Source: Clostridia bacterium (lineage in GTDB: Bacteria; Bacillota_A; Clostridia; Oscillospirales; CAG-272). From it: 51,371 bases of DNA. The first letter of the stretch is position 1; every line of letters begins with the position of its first letter. The translations under genes were made by a program, and so were the position numbers. The notes beneath the pieces are model-generated. The model was not told the origin of the DNA and ran no database searches. It saw nothing but the letters and a program-made list of their open reading frames with translations. The stretch covers positions 1 to 51,371 of the forward strand of contig JAFTLD010000028.1 of assembly GCA_017452945.1 (NCBI GenBank). Reading direction: 5' to 3'. This document shows, in pieces, positions 3,071 through 51,371 of this stretch.

Positions 3071-5374
3071 TCACTCTGCTGTGTATCGGCTGATGATCTC
3101 ATCCTGCATAGCCTGATCCAGCTGGACGAATTTGGCACTGTAGCCGCCTACGCGAACGGTCAGGTTTCCGTGGCGCTCGGGATGCACCTTGGCGTCCAGC
3201 AGATCCTCGAGATTGGCTGAGGTGATCTGTGCCATGCAGCCGCCGTGCAGCATGAAATCGGTCATGGTTGCGCCAATGCTTGCGCGCAGTTCGGGAGTGG
3301 ACAGCATTTTTTGCGAGAGGATGACGTTGAGTGTGGTGCCTCCCACGCCCAGCTCCATAGGCAGCTTGGCAACCGAATTGAGCATGGCGGAAAGTCCGTT
3401 TGTATCTGCGCCCGGACGCGGTCCCATGGTGTTGCCGAGCGGTTCGCAGGCAAAGCGGCCGTCGGGGAATGCGCCAAGCGTTTGTCCGTAGGAAATGCCC
3501 GCTCCCAACAGAGAACAAGCACCTGTATAAATACCGCCTCGGCCGGATTCGTATTTGGCAATCTCTTCCCAGTAAAGGCGCAGTACGCGTGCCGCCATTT
3601 CATCAGCGGTGTCGTCATCGTTGCCGAATTTGGGTGCGACATGCAAAAGCATTTGTCTTGTGCGCTCGTAGCCTTCAAAGTTGGTGTTCATCGCTTCTGT
3701 CAGCTGCTCGGCTGTGATGCGCTTTTGCTCGAATATCAGCAGCTTGATGGCGGTCATAGCGTCTGCCACCGCAGCAAGGCCTGCCGTTTCCATTACGCCG
3801 TAGCCGTAGATCGGGCCGCCCGCATCGTGCGGTAGCCCTCGTTCAAGACATCCGGTGGTGAAAACGCCCTTCACTAATTTTGCGTGGTTTGCACCGCGGA
3901 TCTCCTGACCCTTGCGGCACAGAATGCAATGGATCTTGGTAAAGAATCTGAGCTGCTCGGCAAAGCCCTCGAAGAATTCTTCAAAGCTCTCGCATTCCGT
4001 CAGCGGCTTGGTTACGGGTCCCAATTGGAAATCGGGGCGCTTGGTGGCACGGCCGCCCAGCATAGCAATCTCAAATACCTTGGCAAGGTTAAAGGATCCG
4101 TCCTCGCAGCCGGTGTTACTCATACCCGGCACCTCAATCTCCTGGCAGCCAAGCGTTGCATAATTGCGTGCGTCCTGCAGCGTGACACCGAGCTTGACAA
4201 GTCCCGGGATGACGGTCTCGTCGCTGACGACCGTGGGGTCGCACATGCCCTCGCTCCAAAGCAAAACCGCAAGATCGATCAAGTCCTTGGGGGTATCCTT
4301 GGCAATGCGCACGACCATACGCGGATGCGTGTCGTGAATGTTGCGCAGCACCTGCAAAAACAGATAGGAAAGGGAATTGGTGGCATCCGTGCCGTCTTCG
4401 GGCAGGCAGCCGCCAACTGTCGCGTTGTGTGCACCGCACTCCCAGATCTTGAACATGAACGAGGTAATGGATTCCTCCACCGAGATCACGTCACCGTGTT
4501 CAAGAGAATATTGATAGAAGGGATAAAAGAACTGATCCACGCGTCCAAGGCAATCCACCCAATCCCACAGGGAGAGTACCCATGCAAGCTGGACGGCCTC
4601 GTAAAGTGTGTTGGGTGCGTTGTGTGCCACCTTGGCGCAGTTTTGAGCGATTTCTCCATAGTAACGCTTTTGCACGGCATTCGTTTCGGTTTCGGCCAAA
4701 GCTGCAGCGTATGCAGCGTATTTTTCGAGAAATGCAATCATACCGCGCACGATGATGCGGTTGGCCTCGTAAAAATCCTGTGTGGTCTGATCTTGGGCAT
4801 TTTTCTGGGCGCACTCGTCTATATAAGCCAGCATGCCGTCAAGCCCGCGGGAGAGTAGCGTGACGTAATTGGGAATGGTATGTCCCTGGTAACCGCCCGC
4901 ATTGAACATCCACTCGTGTCCCAGCGTTTGATAGGCTTCTTTTCCCAGAACGCGGTCGCCCTCGGCAAGCAGGTGCCTGTAGTCCAGGGGAGTCATGCGG
5001 TCGCGCAGCTTGTCGGTGCGTTCGCGTTCGCCTGCAGGGTAGTTGTAGTGGTCGTAAATATGGTCGTGGAACTGAATGCCCCACGAAAAGTGCTCCAGGA
5101 TCGGGTAGGTCGGGCGCGTGATACCAACCACGGCCTCGTGCGGATAGATTACGCAGGGTGTGTCCAGCCATGAGCGCACGATTGCGTGAGCCAAGGCAAT
5201 GACGTAAGGTGCGTCGGGCATTTCTTCAAACACGTCGGCAAAGGGGTTGCCCACGGGAGGAACAGGGTCGATAAAGGTCCCCTCACGTGCGTCGCGATGA
5301 CGCAGGCGGGGCAGGATGTCGGCGTGTACGTGCGCCATTCTGTCGGTAAAGATCAATTTGTCATGAATGTTCAT
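3071..5374 (-). CDS. Glycyl radical enzyme (PFL-like family), substrate unknown
   Basis: A 767-residue member of the pyruvate formate-lyase/dehydratase superfamily. The C-terminal radical loop RVGGYSAKF carries the predicted radical Gly744, and the mid-protein thiyl site is GCQEIEVPG with Cys410 and Glu412, matching the CxE pattern of dehydratase/lyase-type members rather than the CC pair of true PFL. Start ATG at 5374 is chosen because AAGGAGG lies just upstream; an open frame extends further but lacks such a site. It sits 10 bp after its activase, so the two are probably one operon. The exact substrate cannot be read from sequence; choline, glycerol, hydroxyproline or an undescribed substrate are possible. 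Anaerobic, cytosolic. Confidence 0.88.
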   Translation of the reverse strand: MNIHDKLIFTDRMAHVHADILPRLRHRDAREGTFIDPVPPVGNPFADVFEEMPDAPYVIALAHAIVRSWLDTPCVIYPHEAVVGITRPTYPILEHFSWGIQFHDHIYDHYNYPAGERERTDKLRDRMTPLDYRHLLAEGDRVLGKEAYQTLGHEWMFNAGGYQGHTIPNYVTLLSRGLDGMLAYIDECAQKNAQDQTTQDFYEANRIIVRGMIAFLEKYAAYAAALAETETNAVQKRYYGEIAQNCAKVAHNAPNTLYEAVQLAWVLSLWDWVDCLGRVDQFFYPFYQYSLEHGDVISVEESITSFMFKIWECGAHNATVGGCLPEDGTDATNSLSYLFLQVLRNIHDTHPRMVVRIAKDTPKDLIDLAVLLWSEGMCDPTVVSDETVIPGLVKLGVTLQDARNYATLGCQEIEVPGMSNTGCEDGSFNLAKVFEIAMLGGRATKRPDFQLGPVTKPLTECESFEEFFEGFAEQLRFFTKIHCILCRKGQEIRGANHAKLVKGVFTTGCLERGLPHDAGGPIYGYGVMETAGLAAVADAMTAIKLLIFEQKRITAEQLTEAMNTNFEGYERTRQMLLHVAPKFGNDDDTADEMAARVLRLYWEEIAKYESGRGGIYTGACSLLGAGISYGQTLGAFPDGRFACEPLGNTMGPRPGADTNGLSAMLNSVAKLPMELGVGGTTLNVILSQKMLSTPELRASIGATMTDFMLHGGCMAQITSANLEDLLDAKVHPERHGNLTVRVGGYSAKFVQLDQAMQDEIISRYTAE

Positions 5375-5384
5375 AAAGTCCTCC

Positions 5385-6272
5385 TTAATTGACTGTAACT
5401 TTTTTGCCGCAAAGGGCATGCAGCTGTTGAGCCAGATCCGCAACCGTTGTCGGATCAAGCGGCTGCGCCTGCATCATGGGGGATTGTCCCAGCTGTGCGG
5501 ATTTGGGAATACCCAGGCGGTGATAGGGCTGAATGTGAATTTCGCGGATGCAGCTGTACGTACGTGCCCATGCGGCAACGCCTGCGATGTGCGCGGCTGT
5601 GTCGTTGACTGCAGGAATGATGGGACAGCGCAAAATGATCTGTGCACCGTGCCTCTCCAGCAGCTCCAGATTGCGTAAAACCACCTGCAGCTCACCGCCG
5701 CACCACGTGCGGAAGGCTTGAGGCTCGGTCAGCTTGCAATCAAACAAAAACAGATCGGTGACCTTGGCCAATGCGGCCAACTTGTCGGTACTGCCATAGC
5801 CGGAGGTTTCCACGCATACGTGTATGCCTTCGGCATGCGCTGCCGTTGCCAAAGAAATGGCAAAATCAGCCTGATAGAGCGGCTCACCACCGGATACGGT
5901 CAAGCCTCCGCCGCTTGCAGCAAACACACGGACATCGCGGCGAAGCACGGCTATGATCTGCTCTTCCGACATAATCTCTCCCGCCAAGCTTAAAGCTCCG
6001 CTGCAGCACTCCCGGGCACACATCCCGCATGCGGTGCAAAGAGCACGATCAAAGCCTTGACCGTTATGCGCCCCGTTTTTGCAGACCTCGGCACATGCAC
6101 CGCAGCCAATGCAGCGGTCAGCGTTGTACATGATTTGCGGTGTGTGCAAGAGCCCCTCGGGATTGTGGCACCAAGCGCAACGCAGAGGGCAGCCTTTGAG
6201 AAAGACCACGGTGCGTACACCGGGGCCGTCGTAAAGCGAGGTGCGCTCGATATTAAAAACCGTTCCTTGCAT
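5385..6272 (-). CDS. Glycyl radical enzyme activase (radical SAM)
   Basis: A 295-residue radical SAM enzyme that would install the glycyl radical in the neighbouring enzyme using S-adenosylmethionine. The radical SAM motif CPLRCAWC (Cys28, Cys32, Cys35) is followed by a ferredoxin-like insert with two CxxCxxCxxxC clusters (CIGCGACAEVC and CTACGMCAREC), typical of activases for non-PFL glycyl radical enzymes. A GGE motif (SGGEPLYQ) binds the SAM amino group in this family. The start has AAAGGAGG upstream. It is transcribed before the glycyl radical enzyme with a 10-bp gap and follows the DUF3592 gene by about 30 bp. Confidence 0.92.
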   Translation of the reverse strand: MQGTVFNIERTSLYDGPGVRTVVFLKGCPLRCAWCHNPEGLLHTPQIMYNADRCIGCGACAEVCKNGAHNGQGFDRALCTACGMCARECCSGALSLAGEIMSEEQIIAVLRRDVRVFAASGGGLTVSGGEPLYQADFAISLATAAHAEGIHVCVETSGYGSTDKLAALAKVTDLFLFDCKLTEPQAFRTWCGGELQVVLRNLELLERHGAQIILRCPIIPAVNDTAAHIAGVAAWARTYSCIREIHIQPYHRLGIPKSAQLGQSPMMQAQPLDPTTVADLAQQLHALCGKKVTVN

Positions 6273-7084: not shown

Positions 7085-7161
7085 TGGCGCGGCGTAAGGG
7101 ACTCGAACCCCTGACCTTTTGGTTCGTAGCCAAACACTCTATCCAGCTGAGCTAACGCCGC
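7085..7161 (-). tRNA. tRNA-Arg (anticodon ACG)
   Basis: Read on the minus strand: acceptor GCGGCGT pairs with ACGCCGC, discriminator G, encoded CCA; anticodon stem TTTGG/CCAAA with loop CTACGAA gives anticodon ACG (inosine-modified, CGN codons); T arm GGGGTTCGAGTCCC. It has its own promoter at 7189-7217 and a terminator directly downstream. Confidence 0.95.
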
Positions 7162-13657: not shown

Positions 13658-16600
13658 ATGGCTAAAAAAGAGAAGAAAATCAAAGAGAAAAAACAGCCGA
13701 AGCAAAAAAAGCAGGCACCGCTTGTCCCCGAGCATCAAAGACCGCTGATCTGTCCGCCCGACCGCGCGGGCAGGGGGCTTGCCACGCGTGTGTTTGGTTA
13801 CGTGTGCCGCTGCCTTGTGGTCATGTGCCTTTGCTGGGCGCTGATGATGTTCTTTGGCGGTGGCTTCAAGGGCTCTTACGGCTTTGAGGTCTGCGTTTCC
13901 GATATGACCATGCTGGGGCTTGCCGCGTTTGCCACGGCAGTCTTCGGCCTGCTTTGGTATAACCGCTATACCGCACTTGGCGGCTTGGCTTTGGGTGCTG
14001 CGGGGATCGCGCTGCTCTCGCCCAACGTCGTACAGGGTGTGTTGGCGCTTTACAACGGCTTTTTGTGCCGCCTGTACCTGTCCAAGTTCACGCTGTATCT
14101 GAGCAATCTGGGTATCGGTGTACCCAACATGACCTCGGGTGAAGCACTTGCGGGCTACTATCTGGAAAAGCTGACCGCTTACGGTGCGGACGGTATGTTG
14201 GTATTGGCGCTGGTGCTTGCAGCTGTGTTTGTCCCGTGTGTGGCCAAGCGCACGCGCCCCGTGCTGCCCACCATCACCTGCCTTTTGATCATCGTACCCG
14301 TGTGCGTGTTCAATATCGCATCCAGCGGCCTTGGCGCAGGCATGCTGATCGCCTCGATCGCAGCCGTGCTTGTGATGTGGTCTTACGATAAGCTGTTCCG
14401 CCGCGCGGTGGATGCCGATAAGTTTGATACCAAGCTGCAGCTGTTCTCGGAAGAGGGAAAGCCGCAATATCCCGAGGAATATCTGCAAAAGCTGCGCGAA
14501 AAGGCAGAGAAAAAGCAGCAGAAAAAGCTGGCTCGCGCTGCCAAAAAGCAAAAGCGCAAAAAGGATAAAACGGTAGACGAGGAAATTTCCTCCTACTTTG
14601 AAACTCCCAAGAAAAAGGTCAAGGCCAAAAAGCAAAGACTGACCGAGCAGGAGAAAAAGGCGCTCAGGGAGCAAAAGAAGCAGCAGAAGCTGCACCGAAA
14701 AGAGATAAAAAAGCAGATCCGTGAGGTGCGCCGCTACGAGCAGGTGACCGACGGCGCAAAAAGTGCCATGGGCGGCTTTGCGGCTGCCATGATGCTGGCT
14801 GTTTGCGTGCTGATCGTCATCATTCCCGCGCTGACCATCAAAAAGCATATGGTCATCAAGGTGCTGGATGAAAAGATCTCGTACGCACGTGCCTACGTGA
14901 CCGCTGCCCTGATGGGTGACGATGAGCGACTGGACGAGCTGGAATACGAGCTGGATGACGAGAACTTCAAGCCGCACTCCACAGAACTTGAGCACGTGCA
15001 GTTTGACGGCACCCAGATATTCTTTATTGAGTCGCAATATGCTGCGAATTTGTATCTGCGCGGCTGGATCGGTGTGGACTATCGAGATGGCGCATGGTAC
15101 ACAGGGCAATCCACCAACGATGAGGAAAATCCCGGTGTCTTTGAGCAGTACCGTGATCTTTACGACATCGATGAGCATCCCTCGGACCGTATGTTCTACG
15201 ATTTCTATTGGCTCTCGCACGGGGATCTTGAGATTTTTGACCCGGAGCATGACTTCTTACAAAAGTATCACAAATATGCGGATTACGGTTTTGTGGCCAT
15301 GACCGTGCATATGCGCCGCGTCAATAGCCCTTCGTCCCTTCTGTATCTGCCCAGCGTGTTCGATCAGAGCCGCGGGCTGTATGGGTACGGCAACGTGGAA
15401 CCCAGTGAGCACAGCTACGTCAACTATTTTGACGGTGTGCTGACAGGCCGTGATTTCACCGAGCCCGGTACTAAGTACAGCGCGTTGGCCTTTGCACCGA
15501 TCAAGACCGATAAGGATTGGATCGGTATTCTGGGTGCGGATATCGCCAATTACAACTTGCAAAAGGAACTGATTTTAGCGTTCTGCTCGTATGAGGTCAG
15601 GGAAATGTCTTACGGCACCGACGTTACGACCACGTACACAGTCAAGGTGGAAGAGGACGTTCCCTCCAAGGGATTTACCACGATCACCTATCGCAGAAGC
15701 AATAAGGCTGTGGCCTCCTTTATTCATGAGAGCCGGAGCGTGTCGTATTCCTCCAAGGATAAGGTGCTTGTGCTGCATGATACACAGGGCAACGCCTATA
15801 CGCTGGAGCTTGACGATAACTATAAGGTAGAAAATGTATCTACCGAAAACACCGACTCTCTGCTGCACCGCTACGTTTCGGGCAAGGATTCGGACAGACG
15901 CGAGATCGAACGCATCCTGTTTGGCGGTGATGCCGATGAAGCCAAGGATACCACCGACTACACCGAGTACGTATACGCATACTATACCGGCAAGAGCGAG
16001 AGCGAGATCATCGCCGAGCTTGCAAAGGAGATCTTTGAAAACGCTACCTATAAGGAAAAGGTGCAGATCGGCACCGAGCATATCGAGGCCGAAACGCATG
16101 ATGAATATCATCCCATCGGCAGCCAGATGGAGATCGACTTTGAGAATAACACCTACTATATCAAGGAAATCGATGAAAACGGTGCGGAAACAGGGGAATA
16201 TATCGTTTGCGAAAATGCAGACGCGACCATGCTGGACGTTCTGTTTGAAAAAATCACGGTGGTAGACGAGGAGGCGTACGACGCGCCCGTTTACGATATC
16301 AAGGAGTATCCTTACGACTTCACGTCGGCTGCTATGCAGAACGCTACGTTTGACGCTGCCGCCGTGCAGCGTAACGACCTTGTCAAGGCAGTCATTGATT
16401 ACATCATCGAGGAAAAGGGCTGTACGTATACGCTGACTCCCGATCTGGAGATCGTGGATGACTCGTTGGACGGTGTGGAGAATTTCCTGACCAATACCCA
16501 CGAGGGATATTGCGTGCAGTTTGCCTCTGCCGTGGCGCTGATCCTGCGCGAGTACGGCATTCCCACAAGATACGTTGAGGGCTATATCGCATGCGATTTC

Positions 16601-46603: not shown

Positions 46604-47374
46604 ATGGCAAACGTTAAGGTAATGACTTACAATCTGCGTGTGGACAATACCGGTGACGGGATCAACAGCTTTACCAACCGTCACGAGCGTGTTTTGCGCA
46701 TGCTGGCAGAAACCCGACCCGATATCATCGGTTTTCAAGAGTGTACGCACCATATGCGCGCATATCTGGAGCAGCACATGCCTGATTATGCGTTCGTGGG
46801 CTGCGGCAGAGAGAAGGATTGCACAGGGGAATCCATGGCAATTGCGTACCGTAAGGGCGCATTTGCCGTTGTCAAGGTGGATAACTTCTGGCTGACCGCC
46901 ACGCCAAGCATACCCGGCTCCAATCTTGGCGGGGATCAGAGCGGATGTCCCAGAATGGCAACCGTAGCCGTTTTGCATCAGATCGGTGCGGGGAAGGATA
47001 TTTGCATGTGCAACACCCATCTGGATCATCAGGGTCAGATCGCGCGTCAGATCGAGGCAGCGCTTTTGTGCGCAAGATTGGAGCAGTACGCGCAGCCCAT
47101 CATCCTGACGGGCGATATGAATGCCAAGCCGCACGCGCCCGAAATCGCCATGATCAAAGAAGCTATGCTTGCGCGCGGTGCGCGGGACGTAACCGAGCAT
47201 CTGGGCGGTACCTTCCATGATTTTGGCAGAAAAGCACCCGAAAAGTATTCCAAGATCGACTATATCTTCGCATCGGGTACGTGTACCGATTGTCATATCG
47301 TTCCCGATGATGCGGACAAGCAGGGCCTTTATTATTCCGATCATTTTGCCGTTATGGCAGAAATAGAAATATGA
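46604..47374 (+). CDS. Endonuclease/exonuclease/phosphatase family hydrolase
   Basis: 256 residues. EEP-fold motifs: MTYNLRVDN, PDIIGFQECT (catalytic Glu), CNTHLDHQG, LTGDMNAKPHAPEI and the final YYSDHFAVMAEI. No signal peptide. Members act on nucleic acids, phosphoinositides or sphingomyelin; the substrate here is unknown. 11 bp downstream of murC and just ahead of the MBL lipoprotein. Confidence 0.9.
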   Translation: MANVKVMTYNLRVDNTGDGINSFTNRHERVLRMLAETRPDIIGFQECTHHMRAYLEQHMPDYAFVGCGREKDCTGESMAIAYRKGAFAVVKVDNFWLTATPSIPGSNLGGDQSGCPRMATVAVLHQIGAGKDICMCNTHLDHQGQIARQIEAALLCARLEQYAQPIILTGDMNAKPHAPEIAMIKEAMLARGARDVTEHLGGTFHDFGRKAPEKYSKIDYIFASGTCTDCHIVPDDADKQGLYYSDHFAVMAEIEI

Positions 47375-47388
47375 AAGGACGTTATACC

Positions 47389-48702
47389 ATGAAAAGAAAC
47401 ACTTTGCTGACGTTGACCGTTTGTGCCTTACTGCTTGCAATGCTGCTCCCTATGGCCGCATGCACTTCTTCGGATAGCCAACAAGGTGCTGTAGATCCGT
47501 CTACAGAAACAGAAACCGAGCCTATGGCCGATCCGATCGATCCCGAAAGCCTTGGTAAGGCTGCCGTGGAGTACGTCTGTCAGGATGGCTCCTTGCTGAG
47601 CACTTACAAGAAAAAGACCGCGGAGGATTTTGCAGGGGTCTGCTCTTATTACGTACAGAATGGATACCTGATTTACAGCAGCAGCGAAAAAGCAGGAAAT
47701 CTGTTCGCAACCTACGTCAAGGATCGCGAAATGGCACACGTGTACTGGCTCAAGAGCAGCGGAGAGCTCAATATCATATTCTCCGAGGATGCAGGAGATA
47801 CGTTGCCGCCCTCAGCCTCTCCCGAGATCATGGAAGGGGACTGTGAGGTTACGATCACGCAGATGCGTGACGGCACCAACGTAAACGGCATGTGCTATAT
47901 CGTGCAATTGCCCGACGGTTCGTTCATCGTGTATGACGGTTCTTATGAAAAGCGCGCGAAAAAGGTCATGGCCAAGATCGAGGACTTGCACAAGGGAGAA
48001 GGAGATCCCTTGATCCGCGCATGGATCTTGACGCACTCGCATAACGACCATTATCCCGCCTTCTCTTATTTTTGCAACAAGTACGCGGATGACGTCAAGG
48101 TCGAGTACGTGATCATTGCACCCATCGATCCGGCTCTTTCGAAAAAACAGGCAAGCGATAATTATCTCAACGATCAAGTACACGAGGATATTGCCAAGCT
48201 GGGAGCCAAGACCGTGTATGCACATACCGGTATGGAATTTTCATTCGGTGATTTCAAGCTGGAGATCCTGTTGGCTGCGGATGATCTGTACAAGGTCGGC
48301 AACCATGGAGATAACTTTAACAATACCAGTATCGTGTCCCGTATTTATAAGGACGACTACAGTGCGCTGTTCTTGGCCGATATAGGCAAAGAGGGGGCAG
48401 GCTGGATGATGGACGTGTACGGCAGCTATCTGCAAAGTGATATTTGCCAGGTCTCGCACCACGGTGTGGAGGACGTGCCGCTGGAATTCTATGAGATCGT
48501 TCAAGCGTCGATTTTGTATTACCCTTGCAATCTGTGGCTGTATGATCAGACCGAGCGCCACTATGAGGTGCGTAAGGCTCTGGAGGAGCGCAGCTATACC
48601 AAGGAGATCCTGATTGCAGGTATTGGTGAGTATACACGTGCATGGGGAACCGAGTTTGCCGAGGATGCACCTCTGTCCATGCCGGATTATAAGAAAAAAT
48701 GA
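47389..48702 (+). CDS. MBL-fold lipoprotein
   Basis: 437 residues from ATG 47389. Signal peptide MKRNTLLTLTVCALLLAMLL ending in the lipobox MAAC. After a linker (about 30-130), a metallo-beta-lactamase domain with LTHSHNDHYPAF, FLADIGKEG and CQVSHHGVED. It resembles the cytosolic MBL protein at 25963 and ComEC hydrolase domains. The membrane-tethered extracellular location suggests hydrolysis of extracellular phosphodiesters or esters. Ligand unknown. Confidence 0.85.
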   Translation: MKRNTLLTLTVCALLLAMLLPMAACTSSDSQQGAVDPSTETETEPMADPIDPESLGKAAVEYVCQDGSLLSTYKKKTAEDFAGVCSYYVQNGYLIYSSSEKAGNLFATYVKDREMAHVYWLKSSGELNIIFSEDAGDTLPPSASPEIMEGDCEVTITQMRDGTNVNGMCYIVQLPDGSFIVYDGSYEKRAKKVMAKIEDLHKGEGDPLIRAWILTHSHNDHYPAFSYFCNKYADDVKVEYVIIAPIDPALSKKQASDNYLNDQVHEDIAKLGAKTVYAHTGMEFSFGDFKLEILLAADDLYKVGNHGDNFNNTSIVSRIYKDDYSALFLADIGKEGAGWMMDVYGSYLQSDICQVSHHGVEDVPLEFYEIVQASILYYPCNLWLYDQTERHYEVRKALEERSYTKEILIAGIGEYTRAWGTEFAEDAPLSMPDYKKK

Positions 48703-50344: not shown

Positions 50345-50373
50345 TTGCCAAATGCAAAAGTTTGTGATATAAT
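50345..50373 (+). promoter_or_regulatory. Promoter reading into the tRNA-Ser-like array
   Basis: TTGCCA (50345-50350), 17-nt spacer, TATAAT (50368-50373). The first tRNA-Ser-like segment starts about 30 bp further on. Confidence 0.65.
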
Positions 50374-50447
50374 ACACCTTGTTGGACACAAGAGGTCGGA
50401 ATGAAACGGTCATAACGGATGAGCAAAAACCTTAAAAACCGTTGACA

Positions 50448-50476
50448 TGCCTCTGTAACAACCGAATATGGAGGCA
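50448..50476 (+). repeat. 29-nt hairpin repeat, copy 1
   Basis: TGCCTC...GAGGCA inverted ends enclose AT-rich sequence; near-identical copies lie at 50673-50701 and 50879-50907. The GGAGGCA end forms the acceptor-like start of the next tRNA-Ser-like unit. Confidence 0.7.
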
Positions 50477-50672
50477 GAATTTCAGCAAGGCTGAAACTAT
50501 TTCAGCAAAGCTGAAATGAAGTGGTCATAACGGGTGAGCGAGAAAAAATGATTGAGTATCATTTTTTCGAAGCGATACCGCCCAAAGCAAGGAGTATGGC
50601 AAGCCGAGGTAACGAGGTGCAGACAGACGACTATGCGACGGTGGCGGGCACGAGTCTTGAAAACCGTTGGCA

Positions 50673-50701
50673 CGCCTCTATTACAACTGAATATGGAGGC
50701 A
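50673..50701 (+). repeat. 29-nt hairpin repeat, copy 2
   Basis: CGCCTC...GGAGGCA, identical to the copy at 50879-50907. Confidence 0.7.
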
Positions 50702-50878
50702 GAATTTCAGCATAGCTGAAATGAAGTGGTCATAACGGGTGAGCGAGAAAAAATGATTGAGTATCATTTTTTCGAAGCGATACCGCCCAAAGCAAGGAGT
50801 ATGGCAAGCTGAGGTAACGAGGCGCAGACAGACGACTATGCGACGGCGGAGGGCACGAGTCTTGAAAACCGCTTGACA

Positions 50879-50907
50879 CGCCTCTATTACAACTGAATAT
50901 GGAGGCA
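50879..50907 (+). repeat. 29-nt hairpin repeat, copy 3
   Basis: Identical to copy 2; its GGAGGCA is followed by TATCGAAG, the start of a near-perfect tRNA-Ser 5' half. Confidence 0.7.
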
Positions 50908-51150
50908 TATCGAAGTGGTCATAACGAGGCGGTCTTGAAAACCCGCCCGTAACTATCCCCTTTGTTCCCTCAAAAAGCCCTATTTTATAAGGGTCTTCGG
51001 CATTTTTCAAAGCGCAAAAATTTCATAGTTCTCTCGCGAAATTCTCTCGAAAATACAAAGCATTTCGCAAAAGATAACCTACGGAGGGTTATCGAAGTGG
51101 TCATAACGAGGCGGTCTTGAAAAACTCTCGTTCACTTATTTGCTATGTAT

Positions 51151-51181
51151 CCAAAAACCCTTGTGGTGACTGGGTTTTTGG
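51151..51181 (+). terminator. Hairpin between tRNA-Ser copies
   Basis: CCAAAAACCC/GGGTTTTTGG with an 11-nt loop, followed by CGATTTTCT. Could stop transcription from the array before the intact tRNA. Confidence 0.55.
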
Positions 51182-51283
51182 CGATTTTCTCTGCACCGTG
51201 CAAGAAATCTTTCTTGCAAATTTCTTTCATCTTTCAATTGAATATCAATCTCGGTATTAACTGTGAGAGCAGTTTTTATACAC

Positions 51284-51371
51284 GGAGGGTTATCGAAGCG
51301 GTCATGACGAGGCGGTCTTGAAAACCGTGTGAGAGCAATGTCACGTGAGTTCGAATCTCACACCCTCCGCC
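51284..51371 (+). tRNA. tRNA-Ser (anticodon TGA), cut at the window edge
   Basis: Acceptor GGAGGGT pairs with ACCCTCC (51362-51368), discriminator G at 51369, then CC of CCA at the end. Anticodon stem GCGGT/ACCGT with loop CTTGAAA gives anticodon TGA (Ser, UCA codons). The long variable arm GTGA/TCAC and T arm GTGAGTTCGAATCTCAC are class II tRNA features. The A of CCA would lie just outside the window. Confidence 0.93.

Follow-up and report, generated by a model that had tools for sequence, protein, structure and literature searches.

The last kilobase of the analyzed DNA, a contig of 51,371 nucleotides from a Clostridia bacterium (in the following: the window), is occupied by a ladder of five tRNA-Ser 5' halves which precede an intact tRNA-Ser(TGA). 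Very probably, this ladder is the left edge of stacked integrative elements, each of which carries a complete replacement tRNA-Ser. The comparisons behind this reading were built on related ruminant-gut Clostridia and rest throughout on contigs of metagenome-assembled genomes (MAGs). Left and right element ends, an empty site, carried tRNA genes and the linkage to integrase genes were all observed in these relatives.

Results and Discussion

The tRNA-Ser Ladder at the End of the Window

For the localization of the tRNA remnants a 15-base D-arm pattern with up to three mismatches was used. It gave seven matches in the window, namely the D-arm blocks of the five halves (50403, 50518, 50723, 50912, and 51094), that of the intact gene (51295) and one further match at 15622; shuffled sequence contained 1.03 matches on average and five at most. 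The intact gene was called by ARAGORN as tRNA-Ser(TGA); Rfam at the gathering threshold did not call it, its sole match in the window being a tRNA-Arg at 7088. A 44-mer at 51080 is identical in 41 of 44 positions to the sequence at 50898 and likewise in 41 of 44 to that at 51281, and the latter two share 86% identity. The best match of this comparison within the first 50.3 kb of the window did not exceed 24/44, and the maximum in 50 mononucleotide shuffles was 27. D-arm pattern, 44-mer matches and ARAGORN thus confirm what an earlier note on this DNA had claimed, i.e., five degenerate tRNA-Ser 5' copies in front of an intact tRNA-Ser(TGA). It was also right in stating that the two halves nearest to the gene lose similarity at the anticodon loop, since in the blocks at 50898 and 51080 the resemblance to the tRNA ends immediately past this loop. 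An anticodon-loop-like block had been assigned to four of the five copies; such blocks exist, but all five copies have one, displaced by about 115 nt in copies 2 and 3 through an insert beside the D-arm. Table 1 lists all features of the region.

Table 1. Features of the ladder region, in positions of the window.
Feature	Position	Strand	Reading and remarks
Promoter, consensus-like (TTGCCA, 17 nt, TATAAT)	50345..50373	+	read as original host tRNA-Ser promoter; 90.7% identical over 43 nt to the G001 array's promoter region
Half 1, oldest, very degenerate	50390..50440	+	read as original host tRNA-Ser 5' half
Short cassette 1	50441..50469	+	read as short-type element left end; families D3/D4; cf. 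78-nt units L107, L110, L112
Half 2	50470..50663	+	acceptor GGAGGCA, palindromes, D-arm 50518, insert of about 115 nt, anticodon-loop block 50656
Short cassette 2	50664..50694	+	family D3
Half 3	50695..50868	+	acceptor GGAGGCA, palindrome, D-arm 50723, insert, anticodon-loop block 50861; family D1
Short cassette 3	50869..50900	+	family D3
Half 4	50901..50941	+	5' half of tRNA-Ser brought by short-type element; acceptor GGAGGCA
Cassette A	50942..51082	+	A-type element left end; hairpin and paired TTCTCTC arm-like repeats
Half 5	51083..51123	+	5' half of tRNA-Ser brought by A-type element; acceptor GGAGGGT
D-like cassette	51124..51283	+	read as left end of newest element; cf. L092, L094, L090
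Intact tRNA-Ser(TGA)	51284..51371	+	read as replacement gene of newest element; ARAGORN

Copies 2 and 3 are parts of a 168-nt repeat with 97% identity, and half 3 is therefore probably a tandem duplicate of half 2 and not the product of a separate insertion. For these two halves unequal crossover, one of the alternatives named in the earlier note, is likely.

The window holds at least three cassette types. Judged by position and cassette type, its history would comprise short-type insertions (one to three events), next an A-type insertion and next a D-like element with the tRNA that is now used. The acceptor strands are those which the model requires, with GGAGGCA after every short cassette and GGAGGGT after cassette A. 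The T-arm of the window tRNA (GTGAG...CTCAC) equals the T-arm of the tRNAs behind cassette D in two loci of relatives (L092 and L094). The newest element is predicted to start at about 51124 and to extend past the end of the window. As the final base of the window is the last base of the intact tRNA, the sequence stops before an integrase gene could be included.

Decayed halves contain short palindromes (TTTCAGC...GCTGAAA) in the gap between acceptor strand and D-arm (50477-50517 and 50702-50722), and a palindrome of the same type is found in the first half of the array of the MAG G001 (L027). Part of the insert of halves 2 and 3 (50533-50650 and 50738-50855) was found again elsewhere in G001 (C41:38810-38874, 85% identity), which makes it probably a dispersed repeat. 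The decayed first half of the MAG G066 (L086) holds a similar-looking insert.

Ladders and Cassettes in Related Genomes

Relatives of the protein encoded at 47371-48702 derive from Clostridia MAGs of sheep, deer, and goat guts. G001 is collinear with the 7 kb left of the window ladder (74%) and possesses a ladder of its own, behind a matching promoter region. Matches of 86-88% to the block 50897-51123 were detected in five of seven related MAGs searched and in further MAGs as well. According to a search of 146 relatives and the retrieved loci, ladders recur for tRNA-Ser(TGA) and tRNA-Ser(CGA). The halves in front of TGA genes are of the TGA type and those in front of CGA genes of the CGA type, with the exception of an odd half in L109. 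Across the order, a strict pattern of half plus cassette was matched by 25 of 394 sampled genomes, and across the class by 8 of 391 (G001 and G142 are common to both samples); the reversed control pattern had no match in the tables of either genome set. Recognizable tRNA-Ser(TGA) sites (up to three mismatches) number one per genome in 11 of 14 genomes and two in the other three.

The stretches between the halves belong to a few cassette families, the order of which differs from genome to genome. Cassette A is followed by the acceptor GGAGGGT in 12 of 12 units and cassette B by three acceptor types. Unit sizes are nearly fixed: 34 of 41 units measure 181-201 bp and four 78 bp, and the others have 167, 236, and 347 bp. 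For 56 of the 70 halves looked at, the next half or tRNA is at most 420 nt away, the remaining 14 being equally close to the end of the sequence, and cargo between halves was found in none of the 70. Both observations bear on the model preferred in the earlier note, in which conventional elements, their attachment site containing no more of the gene than its 5' half, rebuilt the host tRNA each time and lost the cargo between the halves by subsequent deletion. The break of the truncated 5' halves in the anticodon loop and the tyrosine integrases nearby agree with that model. Independent deletions would, however, not produce sizes as constant as these, and the cargo that would have to be deleted was seen behind none of these halves.

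Many long cassettes contain a hairpin of the CCTTG...AAGG type (e.g., at 50972-51010 in the window) at a near-constant distance past the anticodon loop. This hairpin is terminator-like, which would be odd upstream of an essential tRNA. The loci L107, L110, and L112 have 78-nt cassettes without the hairpin; two of them, L107 and L110, adjoin a different integrase group, the spacer of which contains TGACGCCC or TGGTGCCC repeats.

A phage origin of the ladders was considered and provisionally rejected: the cassette patterns matched no viral contig in three scans, and a comparison of the ladder with phage records gave no match. Four plasmid records matched the tRNA end only. An IMG/VR viral contig (L002) opens within the right end of a cassette B, which is joined to an intact tRNA-Ser(TGA) (positions 1-130 in total) and then to reading frames.

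Integrase Genes Next to the Ladders

For the integrase count 67 distinct tRNA-Ser(TGA/CGA) loci were available, of which 50 had enough flanking sequence. A convergent tyrosine integrase gene downstream of the intact tRNA was present in 15 of 22 ladder loci and in one of 28 ladder-free loci (Fisher p = 1e-6), in a sample that is not random, as the loci were collected mostly via ladder similarity and the integrase profile was made from integrases of such loci. The ladder-free exception, L091, contains a cassette A and a decayed half. The distance between tRNA and integrase gene is 16-223 bp in the ladder loci with integrase, with a single value of 770 bp outside this range. No neighboring tyrosine integrase was detected in the other seven of the 22 ladder loci; in L193 it is replaced by a serine-recombinase-like fragment (Zn_ribbon_recom, 4956-6095) directly after the ladder-bearing tRNA-Ser(CGA), and the others were inspected by eye. 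A search with PF00589 in ten ladder genomes revealed integrases straight after several resident tRNAs, on the opposite strand, and the integrases of the relatives combine PF00589 with SAM-like domains.

The genes for integrase, relaxase and a NikA-like protein lie side by side in G001 and represent the integrase and relaxase module of an integrative and mobilizable element (IME). Among the five integrase neighbors scanned in G001 a phage structural gene was absent and an S24 peptidase was present. Further gene products at such loci are an excisionase-family protein and a MazF-like toxin in L113 and a MazF-like toxin in L092. A gene for an RtcB-like RNA ligase (L188, 2514-3722) is located about 8 kb past the G001 integrase.

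Our initial working idea had been integron-like, with non-coding mini-cassettes of about 190 bp that are added singly to a resident host tRNA by a stationary neighboring integrase. Cassette families which are reordered among genomes and lie beside an integrase are what such a process would produce. The integron integrase model TIGR02249 scored only 28-57 bits for four of the integrases, far under the NCBIfam cut-off of 265, which argues against the IntI type. Moreover, the last cassette, the tRNA and the integrase move as one, in G001 beside mobilization genes, and displaced 3' halves (see below) mark distant element ends. The idea was dropped on account of these displaced 3' halves and the carried tRNAs, and we regard it as very improbable.

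The last cassette of a ladder covaries with the adjoining integrase (Mantel r = 0.86, p = 3e-4, 15 loci; non-redundant set of 7 loci: r = 0.73, p = 0.03), as determined by a local-score measure that was selected after the result of a first Mantel test had been seen. The first test, based on identity over the shorter cassette, gave an r of about 0 (p = 0.48) and r = -0.64 for the non-redundant set, which we think is due to 38-nt cassettes that align to anything. In A-type elements, paired TTCT-type repeats of the cassette reappear, by eye, near the integrase gene and at the far end, and they look like putative integrase arm sites. Arm-like repeats agree by eye between the cassette and the spacer from tRNA to integrase in about three of seven integrase groups; shared arm sites gained no significant support from a k-mer test (p = 0.34-0.46).

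A-Type DNA in Different Hosts and an Orthologous Locus

In the pairs compared, A-type DNA from different hosts shows 84-96% identity along 0.6-3.6 kb, and this identity begins at the half, with no similarity between the host left flanks in 20 of 21 pairs. The 3' half of the A-type tRNA is identical in nine of nine loci compared (a tenth, L088, is slightly different), which means that the tRNA travels with the A-type element. In L099 and L102 the tRNA of cassette B is kept, and an integrase was not found in the 1.1 kb downstream.

One orthologous locus could be compared in five MAGs. It contains no half in G462, one in G093, two in G463, at least two in G464, where the contig ends, and three in G031. 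The empty site of G462 is composed of a promoter, an intact tRNA-Ser and a tRNA-Leu. In G031, with the cassette order D-B-D, the promoter, three left ends, the resident tRNA, an integrase remnant and a displaced 3' half are all found within about 1 kb. Related genomes with fewer or more copies, by which the earlier note had proposed to check its reading, thus do exist, with 0 to 3 halves at one site. Together with the integrase linkage, this locus supports that note's central proposal of serial integration at the anticodon loop, most likely by a tyrosine recombinase, with displaced 5' halves on one side and an intact tRNA on the other.

Two alternatives are affected by the same data. Unequal crossover or slippage could have multiplied a single tRNA half, as the 168-nt unit of window halves 2 and 3 illustrates. 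As a general cause it is refuted, because a unit and its neighbor are often drawn from unrelated cassette families whose acceptor strands differ, and because the orthologous locus differs by whole cassettes; we give it practically no credence for the ladders as such. A functional array of tRNA-like transcripts under selection would be in line with a first half that often lies behind a promoter and with the hairpin start at a near-constant distance past the half in most pattern matches. The arrays of close relatives differ, though, one relative having none, and the oldest halves decay and acquire inserts, so that such an array is likewise extremely improbable.

Displaced 3' Halves

Displaced tRNA-Ser 3' halves, which a strict regular expression had missed, were detected by nhmmer in G066, G058, G047, and G138 and also in G031, here beside a truncated integrase gene. 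Acceptor pairing was compared in G066, G058, G031, and G047, with G138 outside this set. In all four the displaced acceptor strand pairs in 7/7 positions with a half from that genome's own ladder; with the resident tRNA it forms 6/7 pairs in G066, G058, and G031, i.e., in all three genomes in which the resident tRNA is known. Ladder half and displaced half, joined on paper, yield a tRNA-Ser(TGA) in four of four cases. Since the displaced 3' halves fit ladder halves and do not fully fit the resident tRNA, the latter must have arrived whole with the element. The claim that the host tRNA was rebuilt downstream is contradicted by this misfit in three of three testable genomes and by the identical carried 3' half of the A-type loci. 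Conventional elements which restored the host gene each time are therefore an improbable explanation, even if the loss of older cargo in G031 would suit them.

The displaced half of G066 fits the half before cassette A, and the decayed earlier half of this genome also has a GGAGGGA acceptor. In G031 it fits halves 1 and 3 of three; half 3 precedes the last cassette and comes after cassette B, as nesting requires. Over 53 nt there is no difference between the displaced half of G031 and the tRNA that follows cassette B in L099 and L102, but the viral contig L001 carries the same 53 nt, so that this identity by itself is no proof. The displaced half of G058 agrees with the first of two ladder halves and not with the one preceding the last cassette. 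Either an older element has lost its body, or it is the older element to which the right end belongs; such a loss may have happened, perhaps by recombination between right ends.

The right ends behave as element borders. The displaced half of G066 adjoins rpoA and rpsD, and on the element side G066 and G058 share 89% identity over the 2178 bp that lead to the displaced half, with unmatched flanks beyond. The junctions in G066 and G058 have approximately TCTTGAAAACC in common with the tRNA site, and truncated halves mark both ends, on separate contigs. No single contig was found to contain a complete element with its two ends: G031 is closed and without cargo, and G042 offers a truncated 3' half only. 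The latter (L205, 18600-18636) is located about 22 kb from ladder and integrase on the same contig and is possibly the far end of a complete element.

In G031 the last element has lost its cargo, to the right of the tRNA, and no bodies were seen for the two older elements. The account presented here must therefore include an added step, the loss of older element bodies. Of the cargo deletion postulated in the earlier note, the part concerning the space between the halves is not borne out by the data, whereas downstream cargo of older elements is indeed missing in G031 and possibly in G058.

Proposed Mechanism and Relation to Known Systems

Based on these observations, the tyrosine integrase of each element would recombine a short core of approximately TCTTGAAAACC in the anticodon loop of tRNA-Ser, and the crossover of the A-type integrase is expected in TCTTGAAAA. 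The host tRNA gene would not be rebuilt; its promoter and 5' half would remain on the left and its 3' half would come to lie at the opposite, right-hand border of the element. Some 40-160 bp inward from its left end the element would have a complete tRNA-Ser, identical in isotype, and after it the convergent integrase gene and the cargo. The next element to arrive would enter the carried tRNA and add a further 5' half and left end upstream, and older bodies, pushed rightward, could be lost. Because the carried tRNA lies near the left end, halves would accumulate without intervening cargo.

The closest known system is the tRNA-dependent lysogeny of actinobacteriophages, for which a tyrosine integrase, a short core within the host tRNA, a host tRNA that is not rebuilt and a carried tRNA of the same isotype are described (Guerrero-Bustamante and Hatfull, 2024, PMC10865867). 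In the same article the authors speculate that a second plasmid could enter the carried tRNA gene, and they call the prevalence of tRNA-dependent integration elsewhere and its evolution open. The ladder elements share all four characteristics. Unlike those phages, the carriers of the ladders are apparent mobilizable elements of ruminant-gut Clostridia at tRNA-Ser, their tRNA is placed a short way inward from the left end, where it is aligned with the host promoter and has no recognizable promoter of its own, and the ladders preserve a record of repeated insertion.

Tandem accretion of integrative and mobilizable elements denotes successive elements at one attachment site, as in the ladders. 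In the ladders, however, each new site is the tRNA of the previous element, so that the 5' halves adjoin without cargo. Integrons consist of ordered small cassettes beside a tyrosine recombinase, and ordered small cassettes adjoin a tyrosine recombinase here too; the ladder cassettes differ in being left ends of larger elements, and the recombinases are of phage/ICE type. Canonical tRNA-borne genomic islands also use a tyrosine integrase at a tRNA, and the split gene is restored from island sequence (Islander, PMC4383910); tRNA fragments left by genomic islands are described in PMC9897764. Such fragments mark the ends of the ladder elements as well, but here the split gene is replaced with a whole second gene and several 5' halves are lined up. 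Among the hits listed by full-text searches of open-access PMC, papers describing such ladders were not found.

With these loci tRNA-dependent integration is now seen in apparent mobilizable elements of uncultured gut Clostridia. The ladders order past invasions at one locus and point to the integrase groups involved. For annotation it is of relevance that half-tRNAs of this kind can be left ends of elements and not tRNA-like RNAs.

Promoters and Expression of the Resident tRNA

Strong promoter-like sites, defined by at least 10 of 12 consensus bases (2.7% in shuffles), lie upstream of 16 of 34 first detected halves and of 16 of 33 ladder-free tRNAs, vs. one of 49 inner halves or resident tRNAs. 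The first detected half may not be the true first one, as in G066 an earlier decayed half lies behind a consensus promoter. Since the left ends are devoid of a recognizable sigma-A promoter, expression of the resident tRNA probably depends on read-through that starts at the original host promoter, which the element would have captured. The ladders suggest that an element can take over the expression of an essential host tRNA.

Extending this reading of the sequences, we tentatively consider the promoter-less essential tRNA as a movable landing pad of a class of mobilizable elements, a proposal which may well turn out otherwise. Such a tRNA would be expressed only once it has come to lie behind a tRNA promoter, would make the host dependent on the element and would restore an intact site for the next one; the ladder would be an ordered record of invaders.

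Upstream of many halves and tRNAs, e.g., in L137 and L095, there is a motif like AAAATTGAATAT, which could aid read-through. It resembles boxA-type sequences of rRNA and tRNA operons.
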